From an uncultured Methylococcaceae bacterium (GTDB lineage: Bacteria; Pseudomonadota; Gammaproteobacteria; Methylococcales; Methylococcaceae), in NCBI GenBank assembly GCA_903934875.1, contig CAIZPP010000142.1:1-33624 (forward strand): a DNA stretch of 33,624 nucleotides. Direction: 5' to 3'. The notes under the pieces were generated by a model. The model did not search any database and was not told the DNA's origin. It worked only from the letters and a program-made list of their open reading frames with translations. Below are positions 2,849-33,255 of this stretch, piece after piece. Every line of letters begins with the position of its first letter. Positions within the stretch are counted from its first letter, which is position 1. Position numbers and translations under genes: made by a program.

Positions 2849-3883
2849 ATGAGCGATGACCCATCCGCCAAACCCAACACAAGCGTCACTGTCGGCAGCC
2901 CCACCTGCGAATTCCCCACTGCAGACCCGGCCCAGCGGGCGGACGAGGCTGGCAAAGCCATCCTGCGGCGCTTGCTGGGGGAGCTATTAGCCAATGAGGC
3001 TGGCGTGTTGCGCAACGATGACCCGGAGTGTCTGCACGATTTCCGCATCGCGGTGCGCCGCACCCGCTCCGCTCTGGGCCAGATCAAGGGCATATTTCCG
3101 CAGAAAACGGTGCGGCGTTTTGCCCCCCGCTTTGCCTGGCTGGGTACTATCACCAGCCCTCCACGCGATTTTGATGTTTACCTGCTCGGTTTCGACGATC
3201 TCAAAGCCGGCTTGCCCGCACCCTTTCAAGAGGCCATTGAGCCGTTGCGTAGCTACTTGGAAAACCATTGTAATCTCGCTCACACAGAATTGGCACTGCA
3301 CCTCCGTTCGGCGCGTTTTCGGACGCTGTTGACCGGGTGGGGAAAGTTTTTGTCGGAACCTTGCCCGAAAAAACCACAATCCCCCCATGCATTGGCACCC
3401 ATCAGGCAAATTGCCGATGTGCGTATCTGGAAACTGTTCCGGCGCGTGTTGAAACAAGGTCGGGGTATCTCGCCTGACACACCGGCGGAAAATATCCATG
3501 AGCTGCGCAAGACCTGCAAAAAATTGCGCTACTTGCTTGAGTTTTTCCGCGACCTTTACCCGCCCGATGAAATTGACCGGCCCATCAAACAATTGAAGAA
3601 ACTGCAGAATTACCTGGGTGATTTCCAGGATGTGCACGCCCGTATCGACATGCTGCGCGGCATCAGCGATGAAATGCGCAATGATATGGCCGTCCCCACC
3701 GAAACCTTGCTGGCGATGGGTGTGTTATTGGCTTCGCTGGATAACCAACAATCGGCTTTGCGGCAGGAGTTCCCCGAGCATTTCGACCCCTTTGCCAACC
3801 CCCGCAACCGGGAGCGGTTTCGGGAGTTGTTTAAGCCTGTCTCTTTGAGCAAAGCCGTCGAGCAGGAGGAGTCGTCCGATTAA
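2849..3883 (+). CDS. CHAD domain-containing protein
   Basis: A 344-residue protein with the conserved-histidine alpha-helical domain (CHAD), a family known to bind inorganic polyphosphate. The first half has LHDFRIAVRRTRSAL with H63, followed by a Arg-rich helix. The second half repeats the pattern at IHELRKTCKKLRYLLEF with H217 and continues with LGDFQDVHARID. These His/Arg/Lys faces form the basic anion-binding groove. There is no CYTH (triphosphatase) domain, which is often fused to CHAD. The frame is open from a TTG at 2813, but the ATG at 2849 is preferred because AGAGGA lies 12 bases upstream. It is divergent from relA. A link between polyphosphate and the stringent response is plausible but only inferred from position. 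Confidence 0.85.
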   Translation: MSDDPSAKPNTSVTVGSPTCEFPTADPAQRADEAGKAILRRLLGELLANEAGVLRNDDPECLHDFRIAVRRTRSALGQIKGIFPQKTVRRFAPRFAWLGTITSPPRDFDVYLLGFDDLKAGLPAPFQEAIEPLRSYLENHCNLAHTELALHLRSARFRTLLTGWGKFLSEPCPKKPQSPHALAPIRQIADVRIWKLFRRVLKQGRGISPDTPAENIHELRKTCKKLRYLLEFFRDLYPPDEIDRPIKQLKKLQNYLGDFQDVHARIDMLRGISDEMRNDMAVPTETLLAMGVLLASLDNQQSALRQEFPEHFDPFANPRNRERFRELFKPVSLSKAVEQEESSD

Positions 3884-3953
3884 AAAATCAACAGAAAGTT
3901 TTACGCAAAGGCGCAACGTAGGAAGAATATTTGATTACAAAACGGATATCTGT

Positions 3954-4523
3954 TCAAGTGCCTTCCCAAAGATCGCCTAGGGCAATCACGGCGGCATCAA
4001 ACGGGGCGACCGACACTTCGTCTTGATCTTGAAACAAGCCAGTTACTGTCCAGCGCCCGTTGTCCAAGGCATAGGCTTCAAGAATCCGTGCCAAGGGGTC
4101 GATCAGCCACAAATAGGCCACCCCATATTGGGCATAGACTTTCATTTTGCTGATACGGTCAGTCCTCTGTGTGCTGGGCGACAGCACTTCACATACCCAG
4201 TCCGGCACAACTTCAAAGCGATGGTCCTGCGGCAACACCGGCATGCGCTCGCGCCGCCAACCGGCGAGGTCAGGAACCAGTACCTCAGTGTCACGGATAA
4301 AATGGACTTCCGGTTCTACCAGTATCCACCAGCCGCCAGGCCCACCATGCCCCTTGTGGTAAGGGTTGTATAGCTCACCTTCCACAGCGGAGGCAGCCAA
4401 GGCGTGTCGTGCGCTGGGTCGTGGCTGGGTGTGGAGAACCCCTGCGATGATTTCACCCGTCACATTGGCGGGTAAAGCCAATAGATGCTCATAAAAACTG
4501 GGTACTTGAACGACAGCAGACAT
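3954..4523 (-). CDS. Uma2 family endonuclease (DUF820)
   Basis: A 189-residue protein of the Uma2/DUF820 family, which has a restriction-endonuclease-like PD-(D/E)XK fold and is found mainly in cyanobacteria and a few other bacteria. The usual landmarks are present: VEPEVHF, then VLVPDLAGWR carrying the Asp, then CEVLSPST and RISKMKVYAQYGVAYLWLID. The substrate and biological role of the family are not established. It stands alone in the minus orientation between the CHAD gene and the NACHT gene, in a stretch that also holds a MITE-like repeat, so it is probably accessory. Confidence 0.85.
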   Translation of the reverse strand: MSAVVQVPSFYEHLLALPANVTGEIIAGVLHTQPRPSARHALAASAVEGELYNPYHKGHGGPGGWWILVEPEVHFIRDTEVLVPDLAGWRRERMPVLPQDHRFEVVPDWVCEVLSPSTQRTDRISKMKVYAQYGVAYLWLIDPLARILEAYALDNGRWTVTGLFQDQDEVSVAPFDAAVIALGDLWEGT

Positions 4524-4617
4524 TGTTATTACAGCGTTTTTAATATCGAAGAGTTACTTGTTGAGTTGTATCATTTTGCGAGGCACAGACACACATGTTG
4601 GTTTAATTGATTGTCCT

Positions 4618-4749
4618 TTATTCAATACCTTCGCCAATATCGTGAGAGACCTCCAATTTTGGCACAGAACCGCCGATCTAAGGGCCAAGCTGGTGCTTGG
4701 CGTTCCCATTGGGAGCGCCAAGCACCAGCTTGGCGAAGGTATTGTTATT
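4618..4749. mobile_element. MITE-like element with TTATT target duplication
   Basis: Outer terminal inverted repeats of 15 bp (4623-4637 and 4730-4744) are perfect. They are flanked on both sides by the direct repeat TTATT (4618-4622 and 4745-4749), as expected for a target-site duplication. Inside lies a second inverted repeat with 19-bp arms (4684-4702 and 4716-4734), whose right arm overlaps the outer one. The 122-bp core has no coding capacity. It fills most of the gap between the Uma2 and NACHT genes (4524-4878); I see nothing else in that gap. Confidence 0.6.
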
Positions 4750-4878
4750 GTATTCCTTTAAATGATTGGTTGGCATACATTTCTAAATAATTGGTATGTG
4801 AAGCATGGGTAACTCGCTGATGTTGAAAACGCTGTAAGTAGCATCGTTGGGTTTCGAACAACGGCGCAAGCAGGTATC

Positions 4879-7791
4879 ATGCAGGCTACGGAACTTTGCC
4901 AAGCTATCCCAACCATGCCTAACTGCCCTCGCTGTTTATCCATCCCTGTGAAACCTTCCCGACTGCAAGCAACAAGCCGGTTTTGGCTAGGCGCGGGTGG
5001 GTGGAGGTTGTTGTTGGTCGTGGTGTTGGGTTTGGGGATTGTGATGGAGGCTGGGGCTGGCTTTGCTAAATATGACCCAGATAAGGAATTAGGCTTAATT
5101 CACAAATGGGAAGAACTGGGGCTGTTGACAGTATTAGAGGATAGGTCGAAAAAAACCCAGCTTGCCGCTGAGGGTAGACTGGAATCACGCCCAACACAAA
5201 ATGACGCAATCATCAAACTTATCCTTGAATGGCTTCAGAAACCTGAAACCAGACTGTATGCTTTGATAGTGATGGGAAATTTCAATGAAGCATACCACCC
5301 TTTGGCCCCTCGCGTCGCTGCTAGTCTGGAAGACCCGGATGATCTAGTAAGATGTGCAGCAATAGGTGCACTGAGTATCATGGGTGCGGACGCTATTCCC
5401 TACGCTAAACAATTCGCAGACAGACTCTCCGACTCAAATAGTCAAGTACGTCAGACGGCATTGTACGCACTTGGCAACATGGGCGAGGCTGCCCGTCCTT
5501 ACGGAAAACAGATTGTCGGTTTATTAAGGGATCAATCCGCACAGGTACGGAAGATTGCCAGCGAAGCCCTTAGAAAAATTAGTGCGCAAACCAACCTCGC
5601 TGGTCCTTTCCGAATATCAAGTGATAAAGACAAACCCGCTGAAGTAATACCAAAACCTGAACACTTGCCAGCAGTCGAACTCGTCACTCAATTGCAATCC
5701 AAAGATTATGAAATTAGCGGGCAAGCACGTGCCACGCTAACAAAATTGGATACTGCCGACCTACTTCCGATTATGCCCAAATTAGCCGAATTGCTGGAAC
5801 GCTCGGACCATGATGGAACAGCGGCAGCATTGTTAGGCAAGCTAGGCGTAGCCGCAAAACCTTACGCACCAAAAATTGCCAAACATCTGGTTGATGAGGG
5901 TTATGGTATTGACACTTACAGAATCGCGCTGTTCCGCTTAGGCCCATTCGACGACCCTGAAATGCGGCGGGAAATCTGGATGGACGTACTCGCCGCCGCC
6001 GAGGTACGTTGCGAAAGTCGGTATAAGCTGCGTGTCGATGCGTATCTGCTATTCGGCCAAGATGCTGACTTGTTGACAGCGACAGCGTGGCTGGGCAAAC
6101 GGCAAGTTGATGAATTGCCGGATATCGGCAAACACGACCAAACCGCCAAAATCCAAGCTGTCAACGCGTTACGCATCGCGCTGCACTACCCGGATAGACA
6201 AGAATTCCATGAAGTGGCGAAGGAGGCGGCGGAAAATATTGTCCGTTTGGTTGATAGCGGCGGCTGGAAGTTGGACGATGTGGCATGGTTGGAGGGCGTG
6301 AGGCTGGATGTGCAGAATAACCAACCCAGTTTGGCCCTGGATGTGGACAAGGCGATGGAGCGCATTCAGCTTTGGCGGATTGTGCGCGGGTTATTATTAG
6401 CGGGCTTGGGCCATGCCGCGTTTTGGTCCGTACTGATAGTGTTGTATCCGCGTTACCGCATCGTGCAAAGCTTGGTGTTCCGCCATCGCTGGTTTCGGCG
6501 CTTTTTCGGGCTAGGCTATGTCAGTGTGTTGTTGACCATCGTGCCCTCGTTGCGCCGCCGCTTGTTCGCCCCGTTCCGCGACGTGCTGGTGCCGCCCGGT
6601 GCCTTGGGCAATTTCGATGAGGCCAGTTATTTCCAGCACTGCCAACTGGTTTCCAAAACCCATACTCACCATGCCCCAGAAAACGCCCACACGCTGCTGG
6701 AACCCTTGCGCGGCCAGCATGTGATCGAAGCCACTTCGGGTTTGGGCAAGACTACGCTGCTGCGTCATCTGGCTTTGCAAAGCCGCCAATATCAACCGGC
6801 GGTGTTATTGCGGGCGGTGGATTGCAGCGAGGGAGTATTGCCCGCGATTCAGAAGCGCTTGCAAGGCCATGCCCGCGACGAGCAATATTTGCGTGATTTG
6901 GTCTATGTGGGGGCCTTGGATATTTTCATTGACGGGCTGAACGAAGCCCCGCCAGACACCCGCGCCCGTATTGCGCAGTTTTTTCAAGAATCGTTCAGCG
7001 GGAATTTCGTCCTGACTACCCAGCCCTTAGTCTGGGATGCGCCACTGACTGCCCGTGTTTGGGAACTGCAACCGCTGGCGGTCGAGGAGGTGGAAGAATT
7101 TATGCGGGTGCAGTGGCCTCGCTTGCAGCCTTCCGCGAAAATTGAGGAGGATAGGTACACACTAGCGGTGCGGGATTTATTGGCGGGTTTGCGGGAGCAG
7201 GCTGGGCAGCATAAAGCCATCGCCGCCGAACGTTTGCGGATGCTGTGCAACCCAATGGAGTGCGTGTTTGCCGCCGAACTGCTGGCGGCGGGGCTGGTGC
7301 CGGAGCCGGGCTTGGTGTTGGCGCAGATTTACCGGCTGATGGTGGAGGAGTTCCAAGCCAAGCGCGGCATACCGTTTCCAGAGCAGCGCTTCGCCGAGCG
7401 GGTATTTAACTGGAGGCAGTCGGGCGAGCCGTATGTCGATATGCAGGGCTTTGAGCATGAGGCACTCGCGTTGGAAAAGCACAAGCTGATGCGCAAATTG
7501 GCGGTTGACGGCAAGGAAGAAGTCGGCCCTTGGGTGTTCCGCCATGACAAGGTGATGGATTTCTTCCTGTTGCCTGCTTTCTGCGGCGAACACAAGGAGC
7601 GGCGTTACGACGTGGTTGCCGATGGCCGGTTTTCCGGGGTTTATGATTTGCTGGCGGGTGTGCTGGCTGGTGACGAGGCAGACGCGCTGTGGCGGTTTTT
7701 GGCGCAACACGCAGCTAAAACCGGCGACCATACCGTCTTTGACCGCTACACACAGTTATGTACTTTCATGGCAACCGAGTCGGTCTATTAA
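4879..7791 (+). CDS. Membrane-anchored HEAT-repeat / NACHT-type NTPase
   Basis: A 970-residue protein of unknown function. It has a hydrophobic N-terminal segment (41-62, ending GAGFA) that is a signal anchor or signal peptide. Next come HEAT-like repeats (about 105-235 and 275-340, with repeating VRxxAxxALxxMG patterns), a strong membrane segment (about 503-524), a weaker one near 545-560, then a P-loop NTPase. Walker A is ATSGLGKTT (618-626) and Walker B is LDIFIDGLNEA (680-690). After these come a sensor-like FVLTTQP strand and an all-helical C-terminal half. Hydrophobic strand, DG and acidic residue at Walker B fit NACHT/STAND NTPases, many of which are defence proteins. If both membrane segments hold, the HEAT part would face the periplasm and the NTPase the cytoplasm. 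Its stop overlaps the convergent hicB by 4 bp. An alternative start is ATG 4915. Confidence 0.75.
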   Translation: MQATELCQAIPTMPNCPRCLSIPVKPSRLQATSRFWLGAGGWRLLLVVVLGLGIVMEAGAGFAKYDPDKELGLIHKWEELGLLTVLEDRSKKTQLAAEGRLESRPTQNDAIIKLILEWLQKPETRLYALIVMGNFNEAYHPLAPRVAASLEDPDDLVRCAAIGALSIMGADAIPYAKQFADRLSDSNSQVRQTALYALGNMGEAARPYGKQIVGLLRDQSAQVRKIASEALRKISAQTNLAGPFRISSDKDKPAEVIPKPEHLPAVELVTQLQSKDYEISGQARATLTKLDTADLLPIMPKLAELLERSDHDGTAAALLGKLGVAAKPYAPKIAKHLVDEGYGIDTYRIALFRLGPFDDPEMRREIWMDVLAAAEVRCESRYKLRVDAYLLFGQDADLLTATAWLGKRQVDELPDIGKHDQTAKIQAVNALRIALHYPDRQEFHEVAKEAAENIVRLVDSGGWKLDDVAWLEGVRLDVQNNQPSLALDVDKAMERIQLWRIVRGLLLAGLGHAAFWSVLIVLYPRYRIVQSLVFRHRWFRRFFGLGYVSVLLTIVPSLRRRLFAPFRDVLVPPGALGNFDEASYFQHCQLVSKTHTHHAPENAHTLLEPLRGQHVIEATSGLGKTTLLRHLALQSRQYQPAVLLRAVDCSEGVLPAIQKRLQGHARDEQYLRDLVYVGALDIFIDGLNEAPPDTRARIAQFFQESFSGNFVLTTQPLVWDAPLTARVWELQPLAVEEVEEFMRVQWPRLQPSAKIEEDRYTLAVRDLLAGLREQAGQHKAIAAERLRMLCNPMECVFAAELLAAGLVPEPGLVLAQIYRLMVEEFQAKRGIPFPEQRFAERVFNWRQSGEPYVDMQGFEHEALALEKHKLMRKLAVDGKEEVGPWVFRHDKVMDFFLLPAFCGEHKERRYDVVADGRFSGVYDLLAGVLAGDEADALWRFLAQHAAKTGDHTVFDRYTQLCTFMATESVY

Positions 7792-8210
7792 CCCTCAAAC
7801 GACAATACTAGGCGTTTGCCCAATACTTGCGCGGCTTTTTCCAACTGTTTGAGCGAGGGCCAGTGATGTGGGTCTTCCAACCGTTTCGCCGCCGGCCATG
7901 AGGTTTCTAACGCACGGGCGATGTCAGCCAAGGAACGCTCCCCCCGCGTCAACCGAACCAGCAATGCCGCCTGGGTGCGTGCATCAGGAGCGATGGGGTA
8001 TTGCTTGGGGGCCAATAGTGACGGCAGGGGAATCGGTTGATTATTATCTAGTTTCCAGCCAAGCATGGCGGTCAATACCTCGGCAGCATTAAACAATGCC
8101 TCGTCCAGAGTTGCGCCTTCGGTGAAGGTATCCGGGAGGTCAGGAAAAGTTACCAGTAAACCATATGGCTCTTGAGGTTCGATTATTGCGGGGTAATGAA
8201 TATCCATCAA
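7788..8210 (-). CDS. hicB: HicB family antitoxin with C-terminal helix-turn-helix
   Basis: A 140-residue antitoxin partner of HicA. The N-terminal part (about 1-60) has the HicB partial RNase-H-like fold pattern: YPAIIEP, YGLLVTFPDLP, then GATLDEALFNAAEVL. The C-terminal part (about 88-138) has a helix-turn-helix pattern around SLADIARALETSWPAAKRL, which in this family binds the operon's own operator. It lies 5 bp downstream of hicA in the same orientation (toxin first, the typical hicAB order). Its stop overlaps the end of the convergent NACHT gene by 4 bp. Confidence 0.9.
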   Translation of the reverse strand: MMDIHYPAIIEPQEPYGLLVTFPDLPDTFTEGATLDEALFNAAEVLTAMLGWKLDNNQPIPLPSLLAPKQYPIAPDARTQAALLVRLTRGERSLADIARALETSWPAAKRLEDPHHWPSLKQLEKAAQVLGKRLVLSFEG

Positions 8211-8215
8211 GGTAA

Positions 8216-8401
8216 TTATTTCAATTTGACACCAGTTTGCCTTTGAATGGCCGCCACTAGACCAGTGCCTATGTCGCGGCTGCCATGAACAGGAACGGGA
8301 ACCGCTCGACCGTCTTTTACCATAATGCGATGGCTACCGTTTATACGGTCAAGTTTCCAACCAGCGGCTTTTAACTTGGAGATGATTTCGTTTCCATTCA
8401 T
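8216..8401 (-). CDS. hicA: HicA type II toxin (mRNA interferase)
   Basis: A 61-residue protein with the HicA double-stranded-RNA-binding-like fold. It reads ISKLKAAGWKLDRINGSHRI, with catalytic His24, followed by VPVPVHGSRDIGTGLVAAI and a basic C-terminus. HicA toxins cleave mRNA and are neutralised by HicB. The length is normal for the family and all key residues are present, so the toxin looks intact. It is the first gene of the hicAB operon, just downstream of a palindromic operator at 8413-8432. Confidence 0.92.
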   Translation of the reverse strand: MNGNEIISKLKAAGWKLDRINGSHRIMVKDGRAVPVPVHGSRDIGTGLVAAIQRQTGVKLK

Positions 8402-8412
8402 GGGAGAATATC

Positions 8413-8432
8413 ATAGACCAGTTTTGGTCTAT
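8413..8432. promoter_or_regulatory. Palindromic operator upstream of hicAB
   Basis: Perfect 8-bp arms ATAGACCA and TGGTCTAT are separated by GTTT. The site lies 11 bp upstream of the hicA start codon. Given the helix-turn-helix in HicB, it is probably the autoregulatory binding site. The function is inferred from position and symmetry. Confidence 0.6.
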
Positions 8433-8490
8433 CAGCAATGGGCTTAAAGCTGTTGCAAAACCCGCTGAACGATACCAACAATATGAAGGT

Positions 8491-8595
8491 GTGCTGGACG
8501 GCTTAGGCTTCAAAGTGGTTTACCGGGAAAATGGTCAGAAAAGGGAATGGCTGATTAACCGCCAGTCCATTCTCTGCAAGGGAAAAAACCGTTAA
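8491..8595 (+). pseudogene. Possible remnant ORF, unrecognised
   Basis: A reading frame on the plus strand is open from about 8406 to a TAA at 8593-8595. Its only usable start is a GTG at 8491, which gives about 34 residues (GLGFKVVYRENGQKREWLIN and a short tail). The translated text looks protein-like, but the frame has no proper start upstream and I recognise no family. It may be the 3' end of a gene lost when hicAB arrived, or chance. Confidence 0.25.
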
Positions 8596-8627: not shown

Positions 8628-9734
8628 ATGAAAGTGAAATCCCACCTGCTCCTATCTCTACCCATTGCCATGGGGCTGCTGTCTATGGCAACGAACGGCC
8701 CTGCTGCGGGCGTTGAAACCCATACGGCGGGCGCCCATTATTTGATGCTGGCGGCCGCAGACGATGATGAGGAAGACGACGAGGAGGAAGAGGCCGTCGA
8801 TTACCGTGACCGGGTACGCGAAATCCAAGGCTGGATGCACCGTCGCAATGCCCAACGCAGCCAGGGTTCTGGTCTGACGGTGTCCCCTTCGTCCAATGAC
8901 GCATCAGGCTACCGGCCCTCTTACCGGGCTGTGCGCCGGGTCAGGCTACACAGAGCACACCATCGGGCCTACAGTCACAGACACCATAACAGACATGTTT
9001 CTTGGCACAGGGTAACGCACAAGCATGTGCATTCCCACAAGTCTGGCCATGTCCTCCATCATAGGCACAGTTACCGGCCCCATCATGTGTCTAGGCATGT
9101 GCGTCCGCAACGGCACACCCATCATGTTGTCCGGCATGTGCATCCGCACCGGCACGCCCATGTTGTCAGGCATGTGCGTCCGCACCGGCATACCCATGTT
9201 GTCCGGCATGTGCATCCGCACCGGCATACCCATGTTGTCCGGCATGTGCATCCGCACCGGCATACCCATGTTGTCCGGCATGTGCATCCGCACCGGCATA
9301 CCCATGTCGTCCGGCCTATGCGTCCGCACCGGCACAGCCATGTTGTCCGACATGTGCATCCGCACCGGCATACCCATGTTTCCAAACCTGTGCATACCGT
9401 GCGGCATAAACCTGTCCACAGCTTGGGTTCCCATCATGGGAAGGCCCATCATGCACACCTGCGCATCGTGCCACATCGCCATCAGGCACATTCCCCACAC
9501 TCTGCGGGCAAGCAGGCCCAACGTGTGGCTCGTCATGCGCAAGCGTCTAAACACCCTATAGCAGCCGGCCATGCAAAATTCCGGTCTAAACAGCAGGCCA
9601 ATCGTGTGGTCCACCATGCAAAAGTACCAAAACGCCATAGTATCAGCCATGCCCAGCCACAGTCCAAACATCTTGCTGTAAAGGCCAAAGCCAGACCGGC
9701 AAAAACAGTAAGGAAAGGCAAGTCCAAGCATTAA
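8628..9734 (+). CDS. Exported histidine-rich repeat protein
   Basis: A 368-residue protein with a signal peptide (KVKSHLLLSLPIAMGLL, probable cleavage near GPAAG). A very acidic stretch follows (about 46-57, DDDEEDDEEEE), then a long His/Arg-rich region from about residue 103 to the end. Residues 156-252 hold eight tandem copies of a 12-13-residue unit of type RHVHPHRHTHVV, rich in HxH and HPH pairs. Such density suggests binding of Ni, Cu, Zn or Co, or of a polyanion, in the periplasm or at the cell surface. This is inference, as no named family was recognised. Several other frames are open through the repeat, including a long antisense one. This frame was chosen because it has the signal peptide, a normal start and stop, and a sensible composition outside the repeat. 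Confidence 0.7.
   Translation: MKVKSHLLLSLPIAMGLLSMATNGPAAGVETHTAGAHYLMLAAADDDEEDDEEEEAVDYRDRVREIQGWMHRRNAQRSQGSGLTVSPSSNDASGYRPSYRAVRRVRLHRAHHRAYSHRHHNRHVSWHRVTHKHVHSHKSGHVLHHRHSYRPHHVSRHVRPQRHTHHVVRHVHPHRHAHVVRHVRPHRHTHVVRHVHPHRHTHVVRHVHPHRHTHVVRHVHPHRHTHVVRPMRPHRHSHVVRHVHPHRHTHVSKPVHTVRHKPVHSLGSHHGKAHHAHLRIVPHRHQAHSPHSAGKQAQRVARHAQASKHPIAAGHAKFRSKQQANRVVHHAKVPKRHSISHAQPQSKHLAVKAKARPAKTVRKGKSKH
9093..9383 (+). repeat. 36-bp tandem repeat array (8 units)
   Basis: One 39-bp unit (9093-9131) is followed by seven 36-bp units beginning at 9132, 9168, 9204, 9240, 9276, 9312 and 9348. Units 4 to 6 are almost identical in DNA, while the outer units carry substitutions, as in an array growing from the middle. 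Each unit encodes 12 residues, so copy-number changes stay in frame. Confidence 0.9.
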
Positions 9735-20641: not shown

Positions 20642-22120
20642 GTGAAAGAGCTGATTGCCTTACATAGAATCACATGGGCTGGTTTCAAGTTCGACAAAAA
20701 GGCAGCTATAGACGGTATCGTTATGTTAAAACCTAAAGCTGAAATTGCAATCGTATATGGACATCAGACTGATCTCAGGGAAGCCGCGCTTGAAGCAATC
20801 GATAAAATGAGTGCTGACGGGTTTCGTGTTCGTTCACGGGTATTAACCAAAAATGAATTAAAGAAGGAAAACACAAATATTTTTGATGCTCTATTGACTA
20901 CGTTCCAAGAACTGGATGCAGCTATCGTTTTTATGACGGCAGATGATTTTGGTTTGTCGAAAAAAGATGTGGCTGAATTTCCTATTAGCGGATTAACAGG
21001 AACCGAGGTTGTAAATAGACTGCATGATCGTTCACGCCAAAACGTGGTTTTTGAACTCGGTCTTCTGATCGGCGCTCTGGGGCATCAGCAGGTAAGACTA
21101 ATTGGCCCTCGAACTCTCGAATATCCAAGCGACATCCAAGGGTTTTATGTGGTTGATGAACTTACACCAGAGGGTGTACTCGAAAATGTCCGTCAAATTA
21201 TTGTGGAACGGCTTCGTTTGAAACCTACACCAGCACCTTTGAGCGACAACTCCCGAATGCTTTCTTACGCAAATATCGGTCCAATTGGTTCGGATACCCT
21301 AAAGGTCTTTGAGAAGGAGTTTAATCGTCTGGAAGACGAGAATGAACGATTAGTATATTTGCTTGAACGCATAGTGTTTGAGTCTTACCTCCAAGTAGAA
21401 ATTACCGAACAATGGTGGTCTAAGCGAGTCGCCACAATTGATGCGAAAAATGATTTACAGAATGCCTGTAAGCAACTACTTAAAGGCGTTACTGATTATA
21501 TGGCATGGTGGCGCCCACCAGACGTAACTGATTATCAGTGTATTGGCTCATGTGTAGAAAATCTTGAACGAATTATAAATGTACTAACAAAATCTGAGGT
21601 TGCGCCTATCGCAAAAATCGTTGCTTATGACTATCTCGGTTTAGCGTATGACAAAGTAGCTCGAGATTCTGGAGTGCGTGAAAATCAGCGAAAAGATGCA
21701 GTTACTAAATCTTTGCGGGCTTTCCAAGCCTGCCTCGACTTCGCGGAAAGGTATGATGATCATGATCTGCATTTATGGAAAGGTTATGCACTTTTCAATC
21801 TCGCAAGAACAAATCATCTAAAAGGAAATAAGAAGTGGCGAAAATTAATGAAAGAGGCGGTTGCAGTTAGAAGTTCTTGGCAACGTGCTGGCCACACTAT
21901 CCCAGAAGATGTTGAAGAAGGTCTTATAGCTGAGTATTTTCATGCTGTTGCGAGTCAGGCCGAACTTGATGATGAACTTACCACAGATCAGATAAAACTG
22001 CTATTTGGTCAGTATGAAGACTGGAGAGTGAGTGCGAGGAAGAGGGTTAGACTTACAATCAATGTCGCGAATACATGGCAACGTATTTTTGAGAGAAACC
22101 CAACCATCAGGGTTATTTGA
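20642..22120 (+). CDS. TIR-like (CAP12/Pycsar-effector type) protein with helical C-terminal half
   Basis: A 492-residue protein. The N-terminal part (about 33-190) matches the TIR-like nucleotide-binding family found in CBASS/Pycsar effectors. It has AEIAIVYGHQTDLREAAL (strand A and first helix), LDAAIVFMTADD, then RSRQNVVFELGLLIGALG with the presumed catalytic Glu138, VRLIGPR, and YPSDIQGFYVV. In such proteins the domain cleaves NAD+. The C-terminal 300 residues are helical, rich in Trp and charged residues, and vaguely TPR-like (AFQACLDFAERYDDHDLHLW); I do not recognise the family. No nucleotide cyclase is adjacent. Codon use is AT-richer than in the hopanoid genes, suggesting transfer. 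The GTG start sits against a hairpin and lacks a ribosome site. ATG 20723 (residue 28), still before the TIR fold, is an alternative. Confidence 0.75.
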   Translation: MKELIALHRITWAGFKFDKKAAIDGIVMLKPKAEIAIVYGHQTDLREAALEAIDKMSADGFRVRSRVLTKNELKKENTNIFDALLTTFQELDAAIVFMTADDFGLSKKDVAEFPISGLTGTEVVNRLHDRSRQNVVFELGLLIGALGHQQVRLIGPRTLEYPSDIQGFYVVDELTPEGVLENVRQIIVERLRLKPTPAPLSDNSRMLSYANIGPIGSDTLKVFEKEFNRLEDENERLVYLLERIVFESYLQVEITEQWWSKRVATIDAKNDLQNACKQLLKGVTDYMAWWRPPDVTDYQCIGSCVENLERIINVLTKSEVAPIAKIVAYDYLGLAYDKVARDSGVRENQRKDAVTKSLRAFQACLDFAERYDDHDLHLWKGYALFNLARTNHLKGNKKWRKLMKEAVAVRSSWQRAGHTIPEDVEEGLIAEYFHAVASQAELDDELTTDQIKLLFGQYEDWRVSARKRVRLTINVANTWQRIFERNPTIRVI

Positions 22121-27940: not shown

Positions 27941-28173
27941 GCAAGCAAATGGGGGGTGGCATGGGGGCCAGCGTGCAAACATTGTCTAAAAAGAGGGTGA
28001 TTTTTTTTCTGTGCGCGTAGAGAAAAAAATTTAAGCCAAGTAAAAACAGTACATCAGTATCCCTATAAATCATAATCTTGCAAGTTGATGCTAAAAATAA
28101 AGCAACAATATTTGCATTACAGCAACACTTTGTGATTGATATACAGCCTTCTACAATTCATCCCAAAGCCTGG

Positions 28174-28189
28174 TGGCATCCCTTTTGCT
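28174..28189 (+). promoter_or_regulatory. Sigma-54 (RpoN) type promoter of the gas-vesicle cluster
   Basis: TGGCATCCCTTTTGCT matches the -24/-12 consensus TGGCACG-N4-TTGCW, with the GG and GC pairs 12 bp apart as required. The predicted start near 28200 gives a leader of about 90 bases before gvpA1. Such promoters need an ATP-driven activator bound upstream; none is encoded in this window. Confidence 0.6.
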
Positions 28190-28290
28190 TTCTATATGTC
28201 ATGCAGCATCAAGCTGTAAATTTTAAAACCTTAAGAACCAGTTGGGCCTTAGGGGTTCATCTAACAAACTATTGTATGGAGTATGTCATC

Positions 28291-28509
28291 ATGGCAAAAG
28301 TACAAAAATCTACCGATTCTTCCAGCTTGGCCGAAGTTGTGGACCGCATTCTGGATAAGGGCATCGTTATTGACGCATGGGTTAAGGTATCTTTGGTAGG
28401 CATCGAACTGTTGTCTATTGAAGCCCGCGTCGTCATTGCTTCCGTTGAAACCTATTTGAAGTATGCCGAAGCTATCGGCTTGACCGCAAGCGCGGCTGCT
28501 CCAGCCTAA
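28291..28509 (+). CDS. gvpA1: Gas vesicle structural protein GvpA, copy 1
   Basis: A 72-residue main wall protein of gas vesicles, which packs into the hydrophobic ribs. It has the typical order [18 protein letters not shown] (helix 1 and strand 1), then [20 protein letters not shown] (strand 2 and helix 2) and a Tyr-containing tail, with a short Ala-rich C-terminus. The frame is open further upstream, but the ATG at 28291 with GGAG 9 bases before it matches the other three copies. It is the first gene of the cluster, behind a sigma-54-type promoter. The encoded protein is identical to that of copies 2 to 4, but the DNA differs at silent sites. Confidence 0.97.
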
Positions 28510-28524
28510 AAAGGCTAGGATAAG

Positions 28525-28551
28525 GCGGTAGGCGGGGAGACCCGCCGCCGC
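28525..28551 (+). other. Hairpin between gvpA1 and gvpA2
   Basis: GGCGGG (28531-28536) pairs with CCCGCC (28541-28546) around GAGA, and GCGG and CCGC extend the stem outside a small internal loop. There is no T-run, so it is more likely an RNA-stabilising or attenuating hairpin than a full terminator. Confidence 0.5.
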
Positions 28552-28596
28552 GAAAGATTGATATTTTTGAAAAACAAAATTTAGGGGTATGTCATC

Positions 28597-28815
28597 ATGG
28601 CAAAAGTACAAAAATCAACTGACTCTTCCAGCTTAGCAGAAGTTGTAGATCGCATTTTGGACAAAGGCATCGTCATTGACGCATGGGTTAAGGTATCTTT
28701 GGTAGGTATCGAACTGCTGTCGATTGAGGCTCGCGTAGTCATCGCTTCTGTTGAAACCTATTTGAAGTATGCCGAGGCCATCGGCCTGACTGCTAGCGCA
28801 GCCGCTCCAGCCTAG
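28597..28815 (+). CDS. gvpA2: Gas vesicle structural protein GvpA, copy 2
   Basis: Encodes the same 72-residue GvpA as copies 1, 3 and 4. The upstream sequence GGGGTATGTCATC is nearly the same as that of the other copies, so ribosome sites were duplicated with the genes. It shares with copies 3 and 4 the silent changes early in the gene (AAATCAACTGACTCT) that differ from copy 1. Confidence 0.97.
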
Positions 28816-28870
28816 TCTATTTCACTGTAAAATTTTTCGATCTTAAAACAAATTTTAGGAGTATGTCACC

Positions 28871-29089
28871 ATGGCAAAAGTACAAAAATCAACTGACTCT
28901 TCCAGCTTGGCCGAAGTTGTAGACCGCATTCTGGACAAGGGCATCGTCATTGACGCATGGGTTAAAGTGTCCTTGGTAGGTATCGAACTGCTGTCGATTG
29001 AGGCTCGCGTAGTCATCGCTTCTGTCGAAACTTATTTGAAGTATGCCGAAGCCATTGGCCTGACCGCCAGTGCGGCTGCCCCAGCCTAA
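28871..29089 (+). CDS. gvpA3: Gas vesicle structural protein GvpA, copy 3
   Basis: Encodes the same 72-residue GvpA as the other copies. It is preceded by TTTTAGGAGTATGTCACC, with AGGAG as ribosome site, and lies 55 bp after copy 2. Differences from its neighbours are silent. Confidence 0.97.
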
Positions 29090-29164
29090 CGGCTTGTATG
29101 AGTTGGCGTAAACACGCCACCGTAGAATAACAATCATAACAAAACTTTTTAGGAGTATGTCATC

Positions 29165-29383
29165 ATGGCAAAAGTACAAAAATCAACTGACTCTTCCAGC
29201 TTGGCCGAAGTCGTAGACCGCATTCTGGACAAGGGCATCGTTATCGACGCATGGGTTAAAGTATCCTTGGTAGGTATCGAACTGCTGTCCATTGAAGCTC
29301 GCGTAGTCATCGCATCAGTCGAAACCTATTTGAAATATGCCGAAGCTATTGGCCTAACCGCCAGCGCTGCTGCTCCAGCCTAG
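29165..29383 (+). CDS. gvpA4: Gas vesicle structural protein GvpA, copy 4
   Basis: Last of the four gvpA copies, with an identical 72-residue product. AGGAG lies 9 bases before the ATG. It is followed by a hairpin at 29399-29431 that probably lowers transcription into gvpC and the assembly genes, matching the much larger need for GvpA. Confidence 0.97.
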
Positions 29384-29398
29384 AGCGAGAGTGAAGCT

Positions 29399-29431
29399 GC
29401 CCTGCCGCTGGTAACCCAGCGGCGGGGTGGC
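29399..29431 (+). terminator. Hairpin/attenuator after gvpA4
   Basis: GCCCTGCCGCTGG pairs with CCAGCGGC and GGGGTGGC around a TAA-containing loop, followed by CTTTT. Its place between the wall-protein genes and gvpC suggests partial termination. Confidence 0.55.
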
Positions 29432-29487
29432 TTTTGAGCATAAGGCGGAAAAAGAAGCATTTTGATTAAAACACAAGGAGAAGAACC

Positions 29488-30597
29488 ATGGGCCGATTAA
29501 CAGAAGATCTGGCGCGTTTGCGCCTAAACATCAATGACAGCCGCGAAGCTCGCTCTAAAGACAATGCGGAACGCGCAGCGCAAGAATATGTACGGGCAAC
29601 CAGTGTAAACACAACAATTGCCGGATTTGCGTCCGCGCGTGCTAACCAAGCAAAAGTTGATGCACAAGCACTGGAGGCTTTCGCCACCGAAAATACACGT
29701 AACGTAGTGAATCTGCTTGGTCGTTTCAGTAGCGACCATCAAGACAGAGCGCGGCAGGGCAGGGAGGATCGTGCTTCGTTTGTGGCCGATGTGGCAAAAA
29801 AAACTGCCGATCTGATTGCGGAATACGACTCCAAGCATAAAGAAGAATCGGAAAGGGCAGCAAAGGAGAGAACGGATTTCATTGCCAATCTAGGTCATGA
29901 CGTGGCTAGCCTGCTAGAGAGCTTCAGCTCCACGCGGAATTTGCAAGCAAGTGAATCTGCTCATGAGCGCGCTGAATTCTTCAGCGAACTGGCACGTTCG
30001 ATCAGTAGATTTTTGGACGAAACTAAAACAAACCGTGCAAACAATGCTAAACTGTCCGCAGAGGAAAGGAATAATTTCGTCACGTCTTTAGTAGGTCAAG
30101 TTTCCAGTCAGCTTGATTCTATAAACAAAGCCCGCGCTGAGTTAGCAAAGAGTTCAAGTGAAGAACGAGCGGCTTTCGTGTCTAACTTAGCAAGTGGCGT
30201 GGCTGCTCTAATCCATGAGTTAGCCAGTGACCGTGCAGGTGCAAATGCTGCATTTTTTGGGGAAGCAAAGGCTGAAAAAAAAAAAGACACCCCACAAATA
30301 GCCGTACATCAAGCCGAAGCGGTCGTAGTTAAGCCCAGAGAGCGGGAAAAGGCTGATGTTTTGGTACAAGAAAACAATGAACAGGAATATGTTCAATCAC
30401 AAATTGTGCAGGTACAAGCGACACAGCCGATAGAACAGGAGTCGCAAGTGGCCGATTCTGTTCAAGATGTGTCGGAACAGCCTACTTTGTGGGATAGTTT
30501 GGTCGTAAAAAAGGTCAAAGAACATGACAAACCAAGGAAGAAACATCAAGGATCGACTGCAGAAGATAGGCCTGAAAATAAGCCGGACGAAAACTAA
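29488..30597 (+). CDS. gvpC: Gas vesicle outer-surface protein GvpC
   Basis: The stiffening protein that binds along the outside of the GvpA ribs. Residues 94-258 consist of five helical repeats, each exactly 33 residues (94-126, 127-159, 160-192, 193-225, 226-258), starting (E/D)R and following the pattern ERxxFvxxLaxxvxxlL. The 33-residue period is the one known from cyanobacterial GvpC. Residues 1-93 include weaker, shifted repeat-like helices. A C-terminal extension (259-369) is charged, Gln/Glu-rich and probably disordered (EKKKDTPQ, DRPENKPDEN), unlike the short tails of classic GvpC. A strong AAGGAG ribosome site precedes the start. Confidence 0.9.
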   Translation: MGRLTEDLARLRLNINDSREARSKDNAERAAQEYVRATSVNTTIAGFASARANQAKVDAQALEAFATENTRNVVNLLGRFSSDHQDRARQGREDRASFVADVAKKTADLIAEYDSKHKEESERAAKERTDFIANLGHDVASLLESFSSTRNLQASESAHERAEFFSELARSISRFLDETKTNRANNAKLSAEERNNFVTSLVGQVSSQLDSINKARAELAKSSSEERAAFVSNLASGVAALIHELASDRAGANAAFFGEAKAEKKKDTPQIAVHQAEAVVVKPREREKADVLVQENNEQEYVQSQIVQVQATQPIEQESQVADSVQDVSEQPTLWDSLVVKKVKEHDKPRKKHQGSTAEDRPENKPDEN

Positions 30598-30653
30598 TCC
30601 AAGAAGTATGGATAATTGAATGCCTATTTTCCAATGCCTAGGGTGTTGGATTA

Positions 30654-30781
30654 ACCGCGCTATGTGAAAGAATACTGAACCGTTGAAACCTTTAGCGTAT
30701 GATTTAAGCTTGAAATTGATTACGCTTAAGATGCCAGTTTCTAACTATACTGTTTCATTATTCGTTAGGACATAGCGCGGT
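30654..30781. repeat. Distant 12-bp inverted repeat in the gvpC-gvpN gap
   Basis: ACCGCGCTATGT (30654-30665) and its exact complement ACATAGCGCGGT (30770-30781) enclose 104 bases, which contain a further TTAAGC/GCTTAA pair. This may be a MITE-like insertion without a visible target duplication, or a structured RNA between gvpC and gvpN. No gene is seen in the gap (30598-30925). Confidence 0.45.
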
Positions 30782-30925
30782 GTATTTAATACAGAGGTGG
30801 ATAGAGTTCAGGTATCGAGCATTATTCAATTATGACATGTTGTATCCTCCCCCCCTTATTACTAAAACCTTCAATTACTCTTGTCAAAGACAAGGACAAT
30901 ATAGTTCTATACAGGACCACTCTTG

Positions 30926-31933
30926 ATGACTAATAAAAATACAATATCGAGCTTGAATCTCCCTACAGAGGAAGAAAATATAATTCCGGAAGCGAGCGAT
31001 GGCTTTGTCATCACCCCTTTTGTTAGGGAAGTTATTGAACGGGCTCTACTCTATCTTAATGCAGGTTATCCTGTGCATTTCGCTGGTCCGTCTGGAACCG
31101 GAAAAACGACGCTTGCTTTTCATTTGGCTGCCCAATGGGGGAGGCCCGTGACCCTTTTGCAGGGGAACGAAGAACTTGTGACTTCCGATTTAACTGGAAA
31201 AGATATTGGATACCGCAAAAGCAAATTGGTTGATAATTTTATCCATTCCGTGATTAAGACGGAAGAGCAGATGAGCCGTGTATGGGTTGACAATAGGCTC
31301 ACGACCGCTTGCAGAAAAGGGGATATGCTTATCTATGATGAATTTAATAGGTCAAAAGCTGAAACAAACAATGTTTTGCTTTCAGTATTAGCCGAAGGGA
31401 TTTTAAATTTGCCTGGGCTACGTGGTTCAGGTGAAGGATACATGGACGTTCATCCTAGTTTTAGGGCAATTTTCACGTCAAATCCTGAAGAGTACGCAGG
31501 TACGCATAAAACTCAGGATGCATTGATTGACCGTATGATCACAATAAAGCTAGACCACCCGGATAGAAATACTGAACTCAAAATATTACATTCCCGTTCT
31601 GGTTTGGAGGAGCATGAGGCAGCATATATTGTAGATATCATACGGGAGCTGAGAGGTGATGAGCATAAATCTAAAACAAGCCTGCGTGCAGGTATAGCCA
31701 TAGCAAAAATAATTAACCAGCAGGGTATAAAACCTCGCTATGGCGATAAATTATTTCAAGCAATTTGTTATGACACATTAAGCATGGAAACCGCTAAAAT
31801 TCAGCATGCGGGTCGGTCAATTTTTTACGAAATTGTGGATGACGTTATCCGTCAAGTATGCCCTCCTTTGGAAATTGCAATAGCCAGCCCGCAACCACAC
31901 CAGCCTAGAAAAATAAAGGCTGTGGAGAAATAG
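30926..31933 (+). CDS. gvpN: Gas vesicle assembly ATPase GvpN
   Basis: A MoxR-like AAA+ ATPase needed for normal gas-vesicle growth. The 335 residues include Walker A GPSGTGKTT (54-62), Walker B MLIYDEFNR (134-142), sensor 1 RAIFTSNPEEYAG and the arginine-finger region DALIDRMITI. The start was set to ATG 30926, because the in-frame TTG directly before it adds only one residue and AGGA lies 11 bases upstream. It follows gvpC after a 328-bp gap and is closely linked to the small genes downstream. Confidence 0.95.
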   Translation: MTNKNTISSLNLPTEEENIIPEASDGFVITPFVREVIERALLYLNAGYPVHFAGPSGTGKTTLAFHLAAQWGRPVTLLQGNEELVTSDLTGKDIGYRKSKLVDNFIHSVIKTEEQMSRVWVDNRLTTACRKGDMLIYDEFNRSKAETNNVLLSVLAEGILNLPGLRGSGEGYMDVHPSFRAIFTSNPEEYAGTHKTQDALIDRMITIKLDHPDRNTELKILHSRSGLEEHEAAYIVDIIRELRGDEHKSKTSLRAGIAIAKIINQQGIKPRYGDKLFQAICYDTLSMETAKIQHAGRSIFYEIVDDVIRQVCPPLEIAIASPQPHQPRKIKAVEK

Positions 31934-31935
31934 TA

Positions 31936-32241
31936 ATGGCTATACGCACTAGGCCACCACGTTCAGTCTCAGATATTAAGACTCATTCTGGACGGACGAA
32001 TAATAAACATGAGACCTATAGAAACTATTTCCAAGTTGGTGCTTTGGAATTAGAGCGTTGGCGTCGTGAGCGTGAGCGCGAAGCTGCCGCGGCGCGCATC
32101 GCCGACATTGATAGCCGCATTGCTGATATTGACAAAGAAAAATTGGAATTATTAGCGGATGCAGCCGAAGCACATGGCGAAAAGAAAAACGATTCTGTGC
32201 TTGTTGAAAAAAAATCCTCTGGATTAAAAATAAAATATTAA
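31936..32241 (+). CDS. Small gas-vesicle-associated protein (GvpV-like?)
   Basis: A 101-residue basic protein that starts 2 bp after the gvpN stop. The N-terminus is basic and unstructured (RTRPPRSVSDIKTHSGRTNN). The middle is a long charged helix, probably a coiled coil (LELERWRREREREAAAARIA, then DIDSRIADIDKEKLEL). Small proteins of this shape occur after gvpN in several bacterial clusters and some are called GvpV. I cannot fix the name from sequence alone. By position it should act in assembly. Confidence 0.7.
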   Translation: MAIRTRPPRSVSDIKTHSGRTNNKHETYRNYFQVGALELERWRREREREAAAARIADIDSRIADIDKEKLELLADAAEAHGEKKNDSVLVEKKSSGLKIKY

Positions 32242-32251
32242 GGTGAAGGCA

Positions 32252-32446
32252 ATGAGCAAGTTACGCACAAGTTCGCATATTCGCACCCATCGGGGATTAA
32301 AAAGCTTCCGCTCTTGCGTAAATGCGACTGGGGTAGCGCAAATCCTCCCTGACCGTGGTCGAGTTATATTAGAAGAATACCGTCGTTCGAACAGAGCGTT
32401 GCAAGCTAGTCAAAATATAACTAGAAGAAATCGTACAGGAGTATAA
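32252..32446 (+). CDS. Small basic gas-vesicle-associated protein
   Basis: A 64-residue basic protein between the previous gene and gvpF. The N-terminus SKLRTSSHIRTHRGLKSFRS resembles the start of other small gas-vesicle-cluster proteins with an HIRTxRGL-type opening. An in-frame GTG at 32243 would add three residues; ATG 32252 is preferred because AAGGTG lies 6 bases upstream. It may be a shortened relative of its neighbour. Function unknown. Confidence 0.65.
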   Translation: MSKLRTSSHIRTHRGLKSFRSCVNATGVAQILPDRGRVILEEYRRSNRALQASQNITRRNRTGV

Positions 32447-32448
32447 TA

Positions 32449-33255
32449 GTGAATGCTATCAAGACAAATAGCGGACGTCCAAAAATTCTTTATGCTCTCT
32501 GTGCTGCTGAGGGTGAAATTCCAATTTACAAAGTTAAAGGATTAGAGGCTGCTGCTGTTTATGCAATAGACAACGGAGAGCTAAGAGCTATAGTTAGCGA
32601 TACCTTAAGCCCTAGAGTACGTCCAGAAAGACGGAACATTACCGCACATCAAGCTGTTCTACATTATTTAATGGAACACGGAACGGTTTTACCCATGCGT
32701 TTTGGGGTTATAGCCCGCAATGCAGATGCTATTAAAAAGCTGCTTGAAGCCAATCGTAAAAGCATCAAAGAGCATATTCATCGCCTCAGTGACCGCGTGG
32801 AAATGGGGTTAAGGGTCAGTTGGGACACATCTAATATATATGAATATTTTGTTTCGACTCACCCAGTATTACGTGAAGCGCGTGACGAATTATATAGGAC
32901 ATCGGACAATATCCAGAGAGACCAGAAAGTCGAGTTGGGCAGGTTATATGAATCTTTACGTGATGCGGACCGCAAAGAGTGCGCGGAAAAAGTAAAGGAA
33001 GTCTTATCTGATTATTGTGAAGATATAATTGAAAATCCGGCCAAAAAAGAGAAGGATGTAATGAATTTGGCTTGTTTAGTGGAAAGGAAACACATGGATG
33101 AATTTGCCAAGGGCGTATTCCAAGCCTCTAAACTTTTCGATAATGTCTATTTGTTCGATTATACTGGTCCATGGGCACCGCATAATTTTGTTTCTTTAGA
33201 CTTGCACATACCTTCATCGAAAACTAAAGTCAAGGAAAGCGATGACTTGGCTTAG
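32449..33255 (+). CDS. gvpF: Gas vesicle protein GvpF/GvpL
   Basis: A 268-residue protein of the GvpF/GvpL family, which binds GvpA and is thought to help start vesicle assembly. Landmarks are LYALCAAEG, LRAIVSDT, the block HQAVLHYLMEHGTVLPMRFG, MNLACLVERKHMDEF, and the closing YTGPWAPHNFVSLDL. The GTG start has AGGAG 7 bases upstream and lies 2 bp after the previous gene, so it is cotranscribed. F and L cannot be told apart with certainty here; gvpF is chosen because gvpG follows. Confidence 0.93.
   Translation: MNAIKTNSGRPKILYALCAAEGEIPIYKVKGLEAAAVYAIDNGELRAIVSDTLSPRVRPERRNITAHQAVLHYLMEHGTVLPMRFGVIARNADAIKKLLEANRKSIKEHIHRLSDRVEMGLRVSWDTSNIYEYFVSTHPVLREARDELYRTSDNIQRDQKVELGRLYESLRDADRKECAEKVKEVLSDYCEDIIENPAKKEKDVMNLACLVERKHMDEFAKGVFQASKLFDNVYLFDYTGPWAPHNFVSLDLHIPSSKTKVKESDDLA

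Follow-up and report, generated by a model that had tools for sequence, protein, structure and literature searches.

The 33,624-nucleotide contig CAIZPP010000142.1 of an uncultured Methylococcaceae bacterium, analysed here over its whole length and called the window below, carries at 4879-7791 (+) an uninterrupted open reading frame (ORF) of 970 amino acids (aa), as found by ORF calling and translation. There is good reason to believe that its product consists of a signal-peptide-like segment, a HEAT solenoid, a membrane segment and a C-terminal NACHT module, with the solenoid and the NACHT module on opposite sides of the inner membrane. The start codon is uncertain, and the ATG at 4879 is used for numbering. 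An earlier note on this DNA, made from the letters alone, had proposed a HEAT-repeat protein with membrane segments fused to a NACHT-type nucleoside triphosphatase (NTPase), and this is confirmed by Pfam HEAT matches, hydropathy and a fold match to NLRC4. The protein belongs to an unnamed family that is spread patchily among bacteria. The balance is about even as to whether this one gene encodes a conflict receptor that is NLR-like, anchored in the membrane and equipped with an exchangeable periplasmic sensor.

By its predicted fold and its motifs, the C-terminal half of the protein is a NACHT module. An AlphaFold2 model of the full protein, built with 18 homologues in the alignment, has a mean predicted local distance difference test score (pLDDT) of 77, being poor for residues 1-107, at 63-82 over residues 501-600 and mostly at 81-95 over residues 601-970. 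It consists of a HEAT solenoid at residues ~105-480, a long helix at 483-522 and short broken helices up to 570, beyond which an alpha/beta NTPase with helical domains extends to the C-terminus. Comparison with the PDB matched residues 549-970 of the model to NLRC4 (4kxf_N; Z 23.1, root-mean-square deviation (rmsd) 3.9, 386 residues), NLRP3 (Z 21.5) and NOD2 (Z 20.4), so the NACHT-like fold on which the earlier note had staked its reading is present. In the Foldseek ranking, NLRC4 takes places 2 and 4-6 (best E 3.0e-6), NOD2 takes place 8, and the others are mostly helical repeats. Support independent of the model comes from a profile of 19 membrane-NACHT halves, for which the best PDB match was again NLRC4 (E 8.5e-6; next molecule E 0.0077), in an alignment that pairs the P-loop and DGxNE. 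SGxGK and DGLNE are invariant across the 19 aligned family rows, that of the window protein included.

No NACHT match for the single window protein was obtained in Pfam-A, PADLOC or NCBIfam. The profile check proposed in the earlier note accordingly held for its HEAT part, with PF02985 (E 1.1e-12, 47.3 bits, cut-off 23.5) and PF13646 (E 2.6e-12) both above gathering score, and failed for the Pfam NACHT model PF05729, which gave no match to the window protein, so that the gathering score was not reached. Within the family, PF05729 matches 7 of the 19 members at E <= 0.01 (best 1.3e-5), with L025 at 22.8 bits and L022 at 16.9 bits, both under the cut-off of 26.7. As this cut-off is a curated score limit and not a biochemical property, the miss does not outweigh the tests of fold and motif. 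With scores such as these two below the Pfam NACHT cut-off, the family is easily overlooked.

The HEAT assignment extends to the model, in which residues 108-244 match the designed HEAT-repeat alphaRep chain 9t1m_A (Z 17.0, rmsd 2.8, 131 residues). Hydrophobic segments lie at residues 44-62 (mean Kyte-Doolittle 2.29) and 504-522 (1.99), with a weaker one at 542-560 (1.21), and cleavage is possible after GFA (residue 63), as judged by eye. Topology and conservation were counted over 38 family rows. A signal-peptide-like start is present in 32 of them: 29 as called (28 with a core hydropathy of at least 1.97, plus L020 at 1.44, counted by eye), two behind an overlong called start (L017 and L072) and one slightly ahead of the annotated start (L088). 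The other six rows begin inside the protein (L012, L019, L024, L066, L075 and L082_9110), with a contig edge at L019, an in-frame stop at L012 and frame breaks at L066 and L075 as causes. The mean charge per residue in the family rows is +0.13 and +0.12 after the membrane segment against +0.01 before it, and conserved arginines stand behind it, i.e. on the NACHT side. Because of the signal-like starts and the positive charges on the NACHT side, the HEAT solenoid would lie outside the inner membrane and the NACHT NTPase inside. The signal or anchor segment and the outside-inside topology suggested by the earlier note are thereby supported by hydropathy, charge and homologues; of its further membrane segment, 504-522 stands up fairly well, and the additional stretch at 542-560 is doubtful. 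A receptor logic, with an outside ectodomain, a membrane helix and an inside NACHT module, would follow from this anatomy.

The membrane and juxtamembrane stretch has the family consensus H..FW..L.F.YP.S..VQA.FFWNPWVR...GLGYVG.LLTWVP.LRRRL. Among nine regions compared from residue 486 on, residues 524-548 are the best conserved, at 2.95 bits per position against 2.56 for the NTPase (611-735) and 2.21 for the membrane helix. To judge from the consensus, this stretch seems unusually rigid for a mere anchor. In NLRs, the corresponding place is occupied by the effector domain.

In contrast to the conserved half, the ectodomain varies. It is less alike than the NACHT half in all 67 full-length pairs whose NACHT halves have an identity of 0.60 or more (medians 0.44 vs 0.69; the pairs are not independent, and 7 of the 38 rows were excluded, namely L088 and the six in which no start is seen). 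As called, and counting signal peptides and overlong starts, the stretch ahead of the conserved half is 295 to 895 residues long. The lower identity and the range of lengths could by themselves be explained by relaxed constraint.

An exchange of the whole ectodomain is seen between two alleles of the same genus as the window, L002 and L003, and in this one pair only. Their upstream DNA and first 232 coding bases are 90-92% identical, at 92% for the coding part, and their last 1.87 kb 85% identical, whereas the HEAT arrays in between (~1.2 vs ~1.8 kb) share only short repeat-level matches of 65-82% and no orthology. By region, the proportion of synonymous differences (pS) comes to 0.12 for codons 1-75, 0.77 for the HEAT array, 0.78 for the final 130 residues ahead of the conserved half, 0.35 for the membrane part and 0.21 for NACHT; the value of 0.78 implies that the replaced stretch extends near the membrane. 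As the flanking core DNA of the two species (71-78% identical) is less similar than either end of the gene, the gene must have moved between species and had its sensor replaced meanwhile. In another pair, a 934-base HEAT stretch found only in L082 (Archangium) is bordered on either side by sequence 94% identical to that of L075 (Hyalangium). Repeats of ~32 bp lie behind the copy in the same-genus relative G003 (L014 6586-6768) and recur in front of the copy in G005.

The ectodomain of the Pseudomonas copy L025 (8222-11329) has no HEAT match in Pfam. A beta-propeller was considered for it and found no support: Pfam gave no propeller match, and the PDB matches had E values of 0.11 or worse. An AlphaFold2 model of L025 made without an alignment reached a pLDDT of 37 and is unusable for the ectodomain fold; the ectodomain is possibly an all-beta sensor.

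Further differences between branches concern the C-terminus and a co-encoded protein. All six checkable alphaproteobacterial copies (L023, L024, L026, L086, L087 and L088) overlap by 4 bases with a downstream gene for a small protein of ~166-185 aa with a signal-peptide-like start; the seventh, L021, meets a contig end at that place. No Pfam match was found for the three small proteins tested. A co-encoded, putatively periplasmic protein fits an exported sensor. The alphaproteobacterial receptors continue for ~150-200 residues past NACHT, and the Mastigocoleus copy L080 (7975-13614) has ~620 extra residues there, with a second P-loop seen by eye, which could hint at an output domain. A single case is that of a protein with trypsin and exo/endonuclease-phosphatase domains, encoded on the Mesorhizobium plasmid upstream of the family gene with one gene between them (L086 2969-5083). 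The available part of a study of an MBL-type (metallo-beta-lactamase) nuclease with trypsin-like proteases describes a protein different from this one (PMC12799240).

Among the genomes of 101 relatives, only those of L002 and L003, besides the window's own, match over the NACHT half, at 35-36% identity to the window protein; matches in G001, G033 and G099 cover HEAT repeats only and were not counted as family. A search with the full window protein returned 33 stretches and no relatives, whereas a profile of the membrane-NACHT half gave 19 loci in contigs of 84,980 species, so searching by HEAT repeats was dropped. The 19 take in the pair from the same genus and count one Mastigocoleus copy twice; they lie in cyanobacteria, myxobacteria, a deltaproteobacterial metagenome-assembled genome, Azospirillum, Bradyrhizobium, Larkinella and Pseudomonas. 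The family occurs in 1 of 369 gammaproteobacterial genomes (the window's own), in 9 of 244 genomes from the cyanobacterial phylum, in 12 of 195 from the myxobacterial phylum and, searched with the whole L025 protein instead of the profile, 1 of 298 Pseudomonas genomes (the starting genome). These counts take in the starting genomes and a few fragments. Since first-look candidates were scored in part (4 per genome for gammaproteobacteria, 6 for the cyanobacterial phylum, 8 for the myxobacterial phylum and 2 for Pseudomonas), presence and copy counts are lower bounds. E. coli genomes gave no DNA match.

One Archangium genome has three family copies, one of them disrupted. Four copies are carried on plasmids (Calothrix, Mesorhizobium and two of Rhizobium leguminosarum), where they are annotated as hypothetical or unknown; both Rhizobium leguminosarum plasmids are typed as conjugative. 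In all, 37 loci were called, four of them without an intact family ORF by the motif rule (L069, L071, L081 and L083); L016 and L073 were dropped as duplicates, and L011 (a copy of L010) and L014 (of L002) were left uncalled. An IMG/VR match, L084, has 74,417 bases, the same as the Corallococcus contig carrying L017. As the phylogeny leaves the deep order unresolved (root forks 55/97, with P0001 and L025 on long branches), no route of transfer is claimed from it.

The gene lies in a block between a CHAD gene and a gene for a His-rich protein that varies among relatives (Table 1). The neighbours named in the earlier note are indeed present, namely Uma2, HicB-like and HicA genes recognised by Pfam and a dispersed repeat, of which the genome has no fewer than 38 further copies (with 40 of 753 first-look candidates scored); as evidence for a defence role, they are weak. 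At their 3' ends, hicB and the NACHT gene share 4 bases. Scans for promoters and terminators gave no more matches than in shuffled sequence.

Table 1. Positions of the NACHT gene, its parts and the surrounding variable block in the window
Feature	Positions	Strand	Basis or remark
Whole gene	4879-7791	+	970 aa; ORF, Pfam, AlphaFold2 model, PDB comparison
Targeting segment at the N-terminus, residues 1-63, with hydrophobic core at 44-56	4879-5067	+	Hydropathy
HEAT-repeat ectodomain, residues ~105-480, presumed periplasmic sensor	5191-6318	+	Pfam, hydropathy, model
Membrane segment, residues 503-523, closing part of long helix 483-522 in model	6385-6447	+	Hydropathy, model
Juxtamembrane segment, residues 524-572, basic	6448-6594	+	Family conservation, charge
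Walker A ATSGLGKT, residues 618-625	6730-6753	+	Motif, alignment
Walker B / NACHT acidic motif IDGLNE, residues 684-689	6928-6945	+	Alignment; aligned place in NLRC4 is DGYNE
FRHDK motif, residues 887-891	7537-7551	+	FRH invariant in 19 aligned rows
Variable block between CHAD gene and His-rich protein gene	3862-8554		Comparison with relatives
Uma2 family gene in variable block	3954-4523	-	Pfam
Dispersed ~125-bp hairpin-bearing repeat, copy directly upstream of NACHT gene	4618-4745		Genome scan
HicB-like gene in variable block	7788-8210	-	Pfam
HicA gene in variable block	8216-8401	-	Pfam

The flanked site was examined in four of six same-genus relatives (G001, G003, G005 and G006). The gap between the CHAD gene and the His-rich protein gene measures ~0.15 kb in G005 and ~0.5 kb in G001, while the CHAD gene of G006 has other ORFs behind it. 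In G003, the same site holds a gene for a 444-aa protein that combines a TIR_2 domain (E 9e-19) with an FGE-sulfatase domain (E 4e-57) (L109 3136-4470 (-)). The flanking stretches of G001 and G003 are 92-97.6% identical, and the TIR gene must therefore have been gained or lost recently. The site of the window gene is a site of turnover with an immune-type gene in one relative, which helps the defence reading. The His-rich, exported-looking protein at 8628-9734 (+) has no Pfam match and is encoded in part by a 36-bp tandem array (9094-9380, 7.9 copies); its gene was found in three of the four relatives' stretches examined.

As a rule, the known NLR-type immune switches are cytosolic. In animal NLRs such as NLRC4, NLRP3 and NOD2, which are cytosolic, an effector domain (CARD or PYD) stands before NACHT and an LRR sensor behind it. 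The window protein resembles them in that the alignment covers NACHT from its beginning through to the C-terminus (Z 20-23), with the DGxNE of NLRC4, but it differs from them by placing an exported HEAT sensor and a membrane segment before NACHT and nothing behind it, the range aligned with NLRC4 ending at residue 970, the last one. AVAST (Avs) proteins are likewise bacterial STAND-type NTPases; they are cytosolic, with an effector before the NTPase and a TPR-type sensor behind it. At E <= 1, the only PADLOC match of the window protein is to a HEAT-type model (E 0.025), with no match to the Avs models of the PADLOC set. Most clades of the bacterial NACHT antiphage proteins (bNACHTs) carry an effector domain before NACHT. 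The window protein is a bacterial NACHT protein as well, in which only HEAT repeats and the membrane segment were recognised before NACHT; phage defence has been demonstrated for bNACHTs but is inferred for the window family. With its recognisable effector and its rear sensor both missing, the window protein appears to be neither a standard bNACHT nor a standard Avs protein. The bNACHTs of clade 14 also lack a readily discernible effector domain and yet defend against phage, according to the available part of PMC12169576, and the missing effector is therefore compatible with kinship to them. By contrast, a signal peptide, a membrane segment and an exported sensor are not reported for bNACHTs in that part of the same source (PMC12169576).

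Sensor kinases with a periplasmic ectodomain share the layout of outside sensor, membrane helix and inside output with the window family, whose output module is, however, NACHT and not a kinase. As far as the available part of the source goes, the nearest published idea of a diversifying sensor on NACHT is that of STAND NTPases with sensors diversified by diversity-generating retroelements (DGRs), in which a lectin-fold sensor is altered by the retroelement (PMC10907252). These have in common with the window family a diversifying, putative antigen sensor on a STAND/NACHT NTPase, and some of the targets have predicted membrane segments or periplasmic parts (PMC10907252); the window family differs in having a HEAT array, exchanged in one pair. 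No description of a family with an exported HEAT sensor, a membrane segment and NACHT was found in the open-licence literature, where absence counts for little, as subscription papers lie outside its scope.

In the mechanism proposed for the window protein, the N-terminal signal peptide would send the HEAT solenoid to the periplasm, where it would bind a ligand, most likely a piece of a phage or other intruder, or damage made by the intruder. The last helix of the solenoid would cross the inner membrane and relay the binding to the cytosolic NACHT module, which would open, swap its nucleotide and oligomerise as NLRs do. The clustered membrane and juxtamembrane segments might then open or disrupt the membrane, stopping the infected cell. 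The membrane itself as the output is a tentative suggestion, preferred for want of any other visible effector and for the high conservation of the juxtamembrane part. A conflict or immune role of the family is a little better than evenly supported, and is preferred because of the exchanged sensor, the turnover at the site, the plasmid carriage and the patchiness; by analogy, an antiphage role appears plausible.

Several observations weigh against this reading, beginning with the topology. The membrane segment of the window protein is modest (Kyte-Doolittle 1.99; position-weighted insertion score 2.58, not favourable), the model is weak around it, at the pLDDT of 63-82 noted for residues 501-600, and the second hydrophobic stretch at 542-560, also seen in the family mean, leaves some doubt about the topology. 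Such a stretch after the first segment would be expected if the N-terminal segment were an anchor, the membrane part a hairpin, and HEAT and NACHT both inside the cell. A cytosolic HEAT sensor of this kind is improbable given that most members have signal-peptide-like starts with cleavage-like ends, that an N-terminal anchor preceded by positive charges would still place HEAT outside, that the partner protein of the alphaproteobacterial branch is putatively secreted and that the model breaks the second stretch into short helices, if with low confidence. As to function, neither Pfam nor the model reveals a recognisable effector domain on either side of NACHT in the window protein, the protein fits none of the PADLOC defence models (one HEAT-only match, E 0.025), and none of 50,697 phage records carries a family copy at E 1e-8. 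The surroundings of the family point the same way. In a survey of 429 neighbours at 31 loci, which excluded proteins of < 70 aa or >= 1500 aa, the groups shared by at least 4 loci were all generic (ABC ATPases at 6, histidine kinases at 4, protein kinases at 4) and scattered in position and strand; among the 116 nearest neighbours, which include tRNA synthetases and AcrB, no Pfam family occurs in more than two; and no defence-island pattern is seen around the 31 loci. A conserved operon partner for the whole family, for which 10 members were scanned, was rejected, the largest neighbour groups being those generic ones of 6, 4 and 4 loci; for the alphaproteobacterial branch, the idea of such a partner was retained. 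PADLOC matched the 116 nearest neighbours to 75 families, none in more than two members and many generic, from which nothing is concluded because there was no matched control set. The earlier note had named homologues lying solely among housekeeping genes as a refutation, and the outcome is mixed: housekeeping and generic neighbours do occur, to its disadvantage, and the variable site with the TIR gene and the plasmid copies are in its favour. A receptor for envelope stress or nutrients, whose ectodomain senses the state of the cell wall or outer membrane while NACHT regulates a cytosolic partner with no immune role, would suit the housekeeping neighbours and the ABC transporters and sensor kinases at some loci. 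The secreted alphaproteobacterial partner could then be a periplasmic ligand-binding protein, and the Pseudomonas ectodomain without HEAT matches would recall the variation of sensor kinases. Presence in a small minority of genomes, one exchanged ectodomain and carriage on plasmids are unlike a house sensor, and this explanation is rather unlikely.

The sensor exchange, too, is open to more than one interpretation. A synonymous break is clear in one of eight pairs, suggestive in one (L013/L064, with a synonymous divergence (dS) of 2.63 in the HEAT array against 1.08 in NACHT), confounded in one (L075/L082, by a frame break) and absent in five; L027/L078 has no clear excess (0.46 in the HEAT array against 0.27-0.47 elsewhere). 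Even the clear exchange fits kin or self recognition equally well, in which the HEAT ectodomain would recognise a partner on neighbouring cells, a match or mismatch triggering NACHT. Replacement of the whole ectodomain between two alleles with conserved ends, membership in filamentous cyanobacteria and myxobacteria, the three Archangium copies in one genome (one of them disrupted) and the parallel with fungal NACHT incompatibility proteins, as given in the available part of PMC7159879, all speak for such recognition. It is nevertheless unlikely, for the family also occurs in Bradyrhizobium, Rhizobium, Pseudomonas and methanotroph genomes and on plasmids, where recognition by contact is less expected, and no specific surface-protein partner recurs among the neighbours at the 31 loci. 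Finally, the gene could be a decaying or functionless mosaic, as its sensor and NACHT halves differ in the GC content of third codon positions (GC3; 0.39-0.51 at residues 101-400 vs 0.63-0.78 at residues 401-970) and as other copies are disrupted or start internally (L066, L075 and L082_9110). This is very improbable: the 970 codons are uninterrupted, the catalytic motifs and the fold are intact, and the GC3 step is common to all three same-genus copies examined.

Elsewhere in the window, a 492-aa protein encoded at 20642-22120 (+) has a CAP12/Pycsar-effector TIR domain (PF10137, E 9.7e-19) and is a second immune-type gene product; the genes ahead of it look like a hopanoid operon. Gas vesicle genes occupy 28078-33255, with gvpA-type (PF00741) and GvpF/L (PF06386) genes and an AAA ATPase, and near-copies of a ~280-bp gvpA-type unit stand in tandem at 28571-29383. 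A perfect GGAAGA repeat of 18.7 copies (33513-33624) reaches the contig end.

Surveys relying on the Pfam NACHT cut-off likely miss the family of HEAT-membrane-NACHT proteins. For the proposed conflict receptor, the allele pair with exchanged ectodomains makes a recognition role directly testable. A bolder and still speculative reading is that of a widespread class of transmembrane bacterial NLRs acting as outside-in immune receptors, with a swappable periplasmic domain and the membrane segment as death effector, in which recombination would swap the recognition domain between a fixed signal peptide and a fixed membrane-NACHT chassis. With the sensor outside and the NACHT switch inside, the family would combine cell-surface and NLR-type sensing in one protein, and the cell could respond before phage DNA enters.

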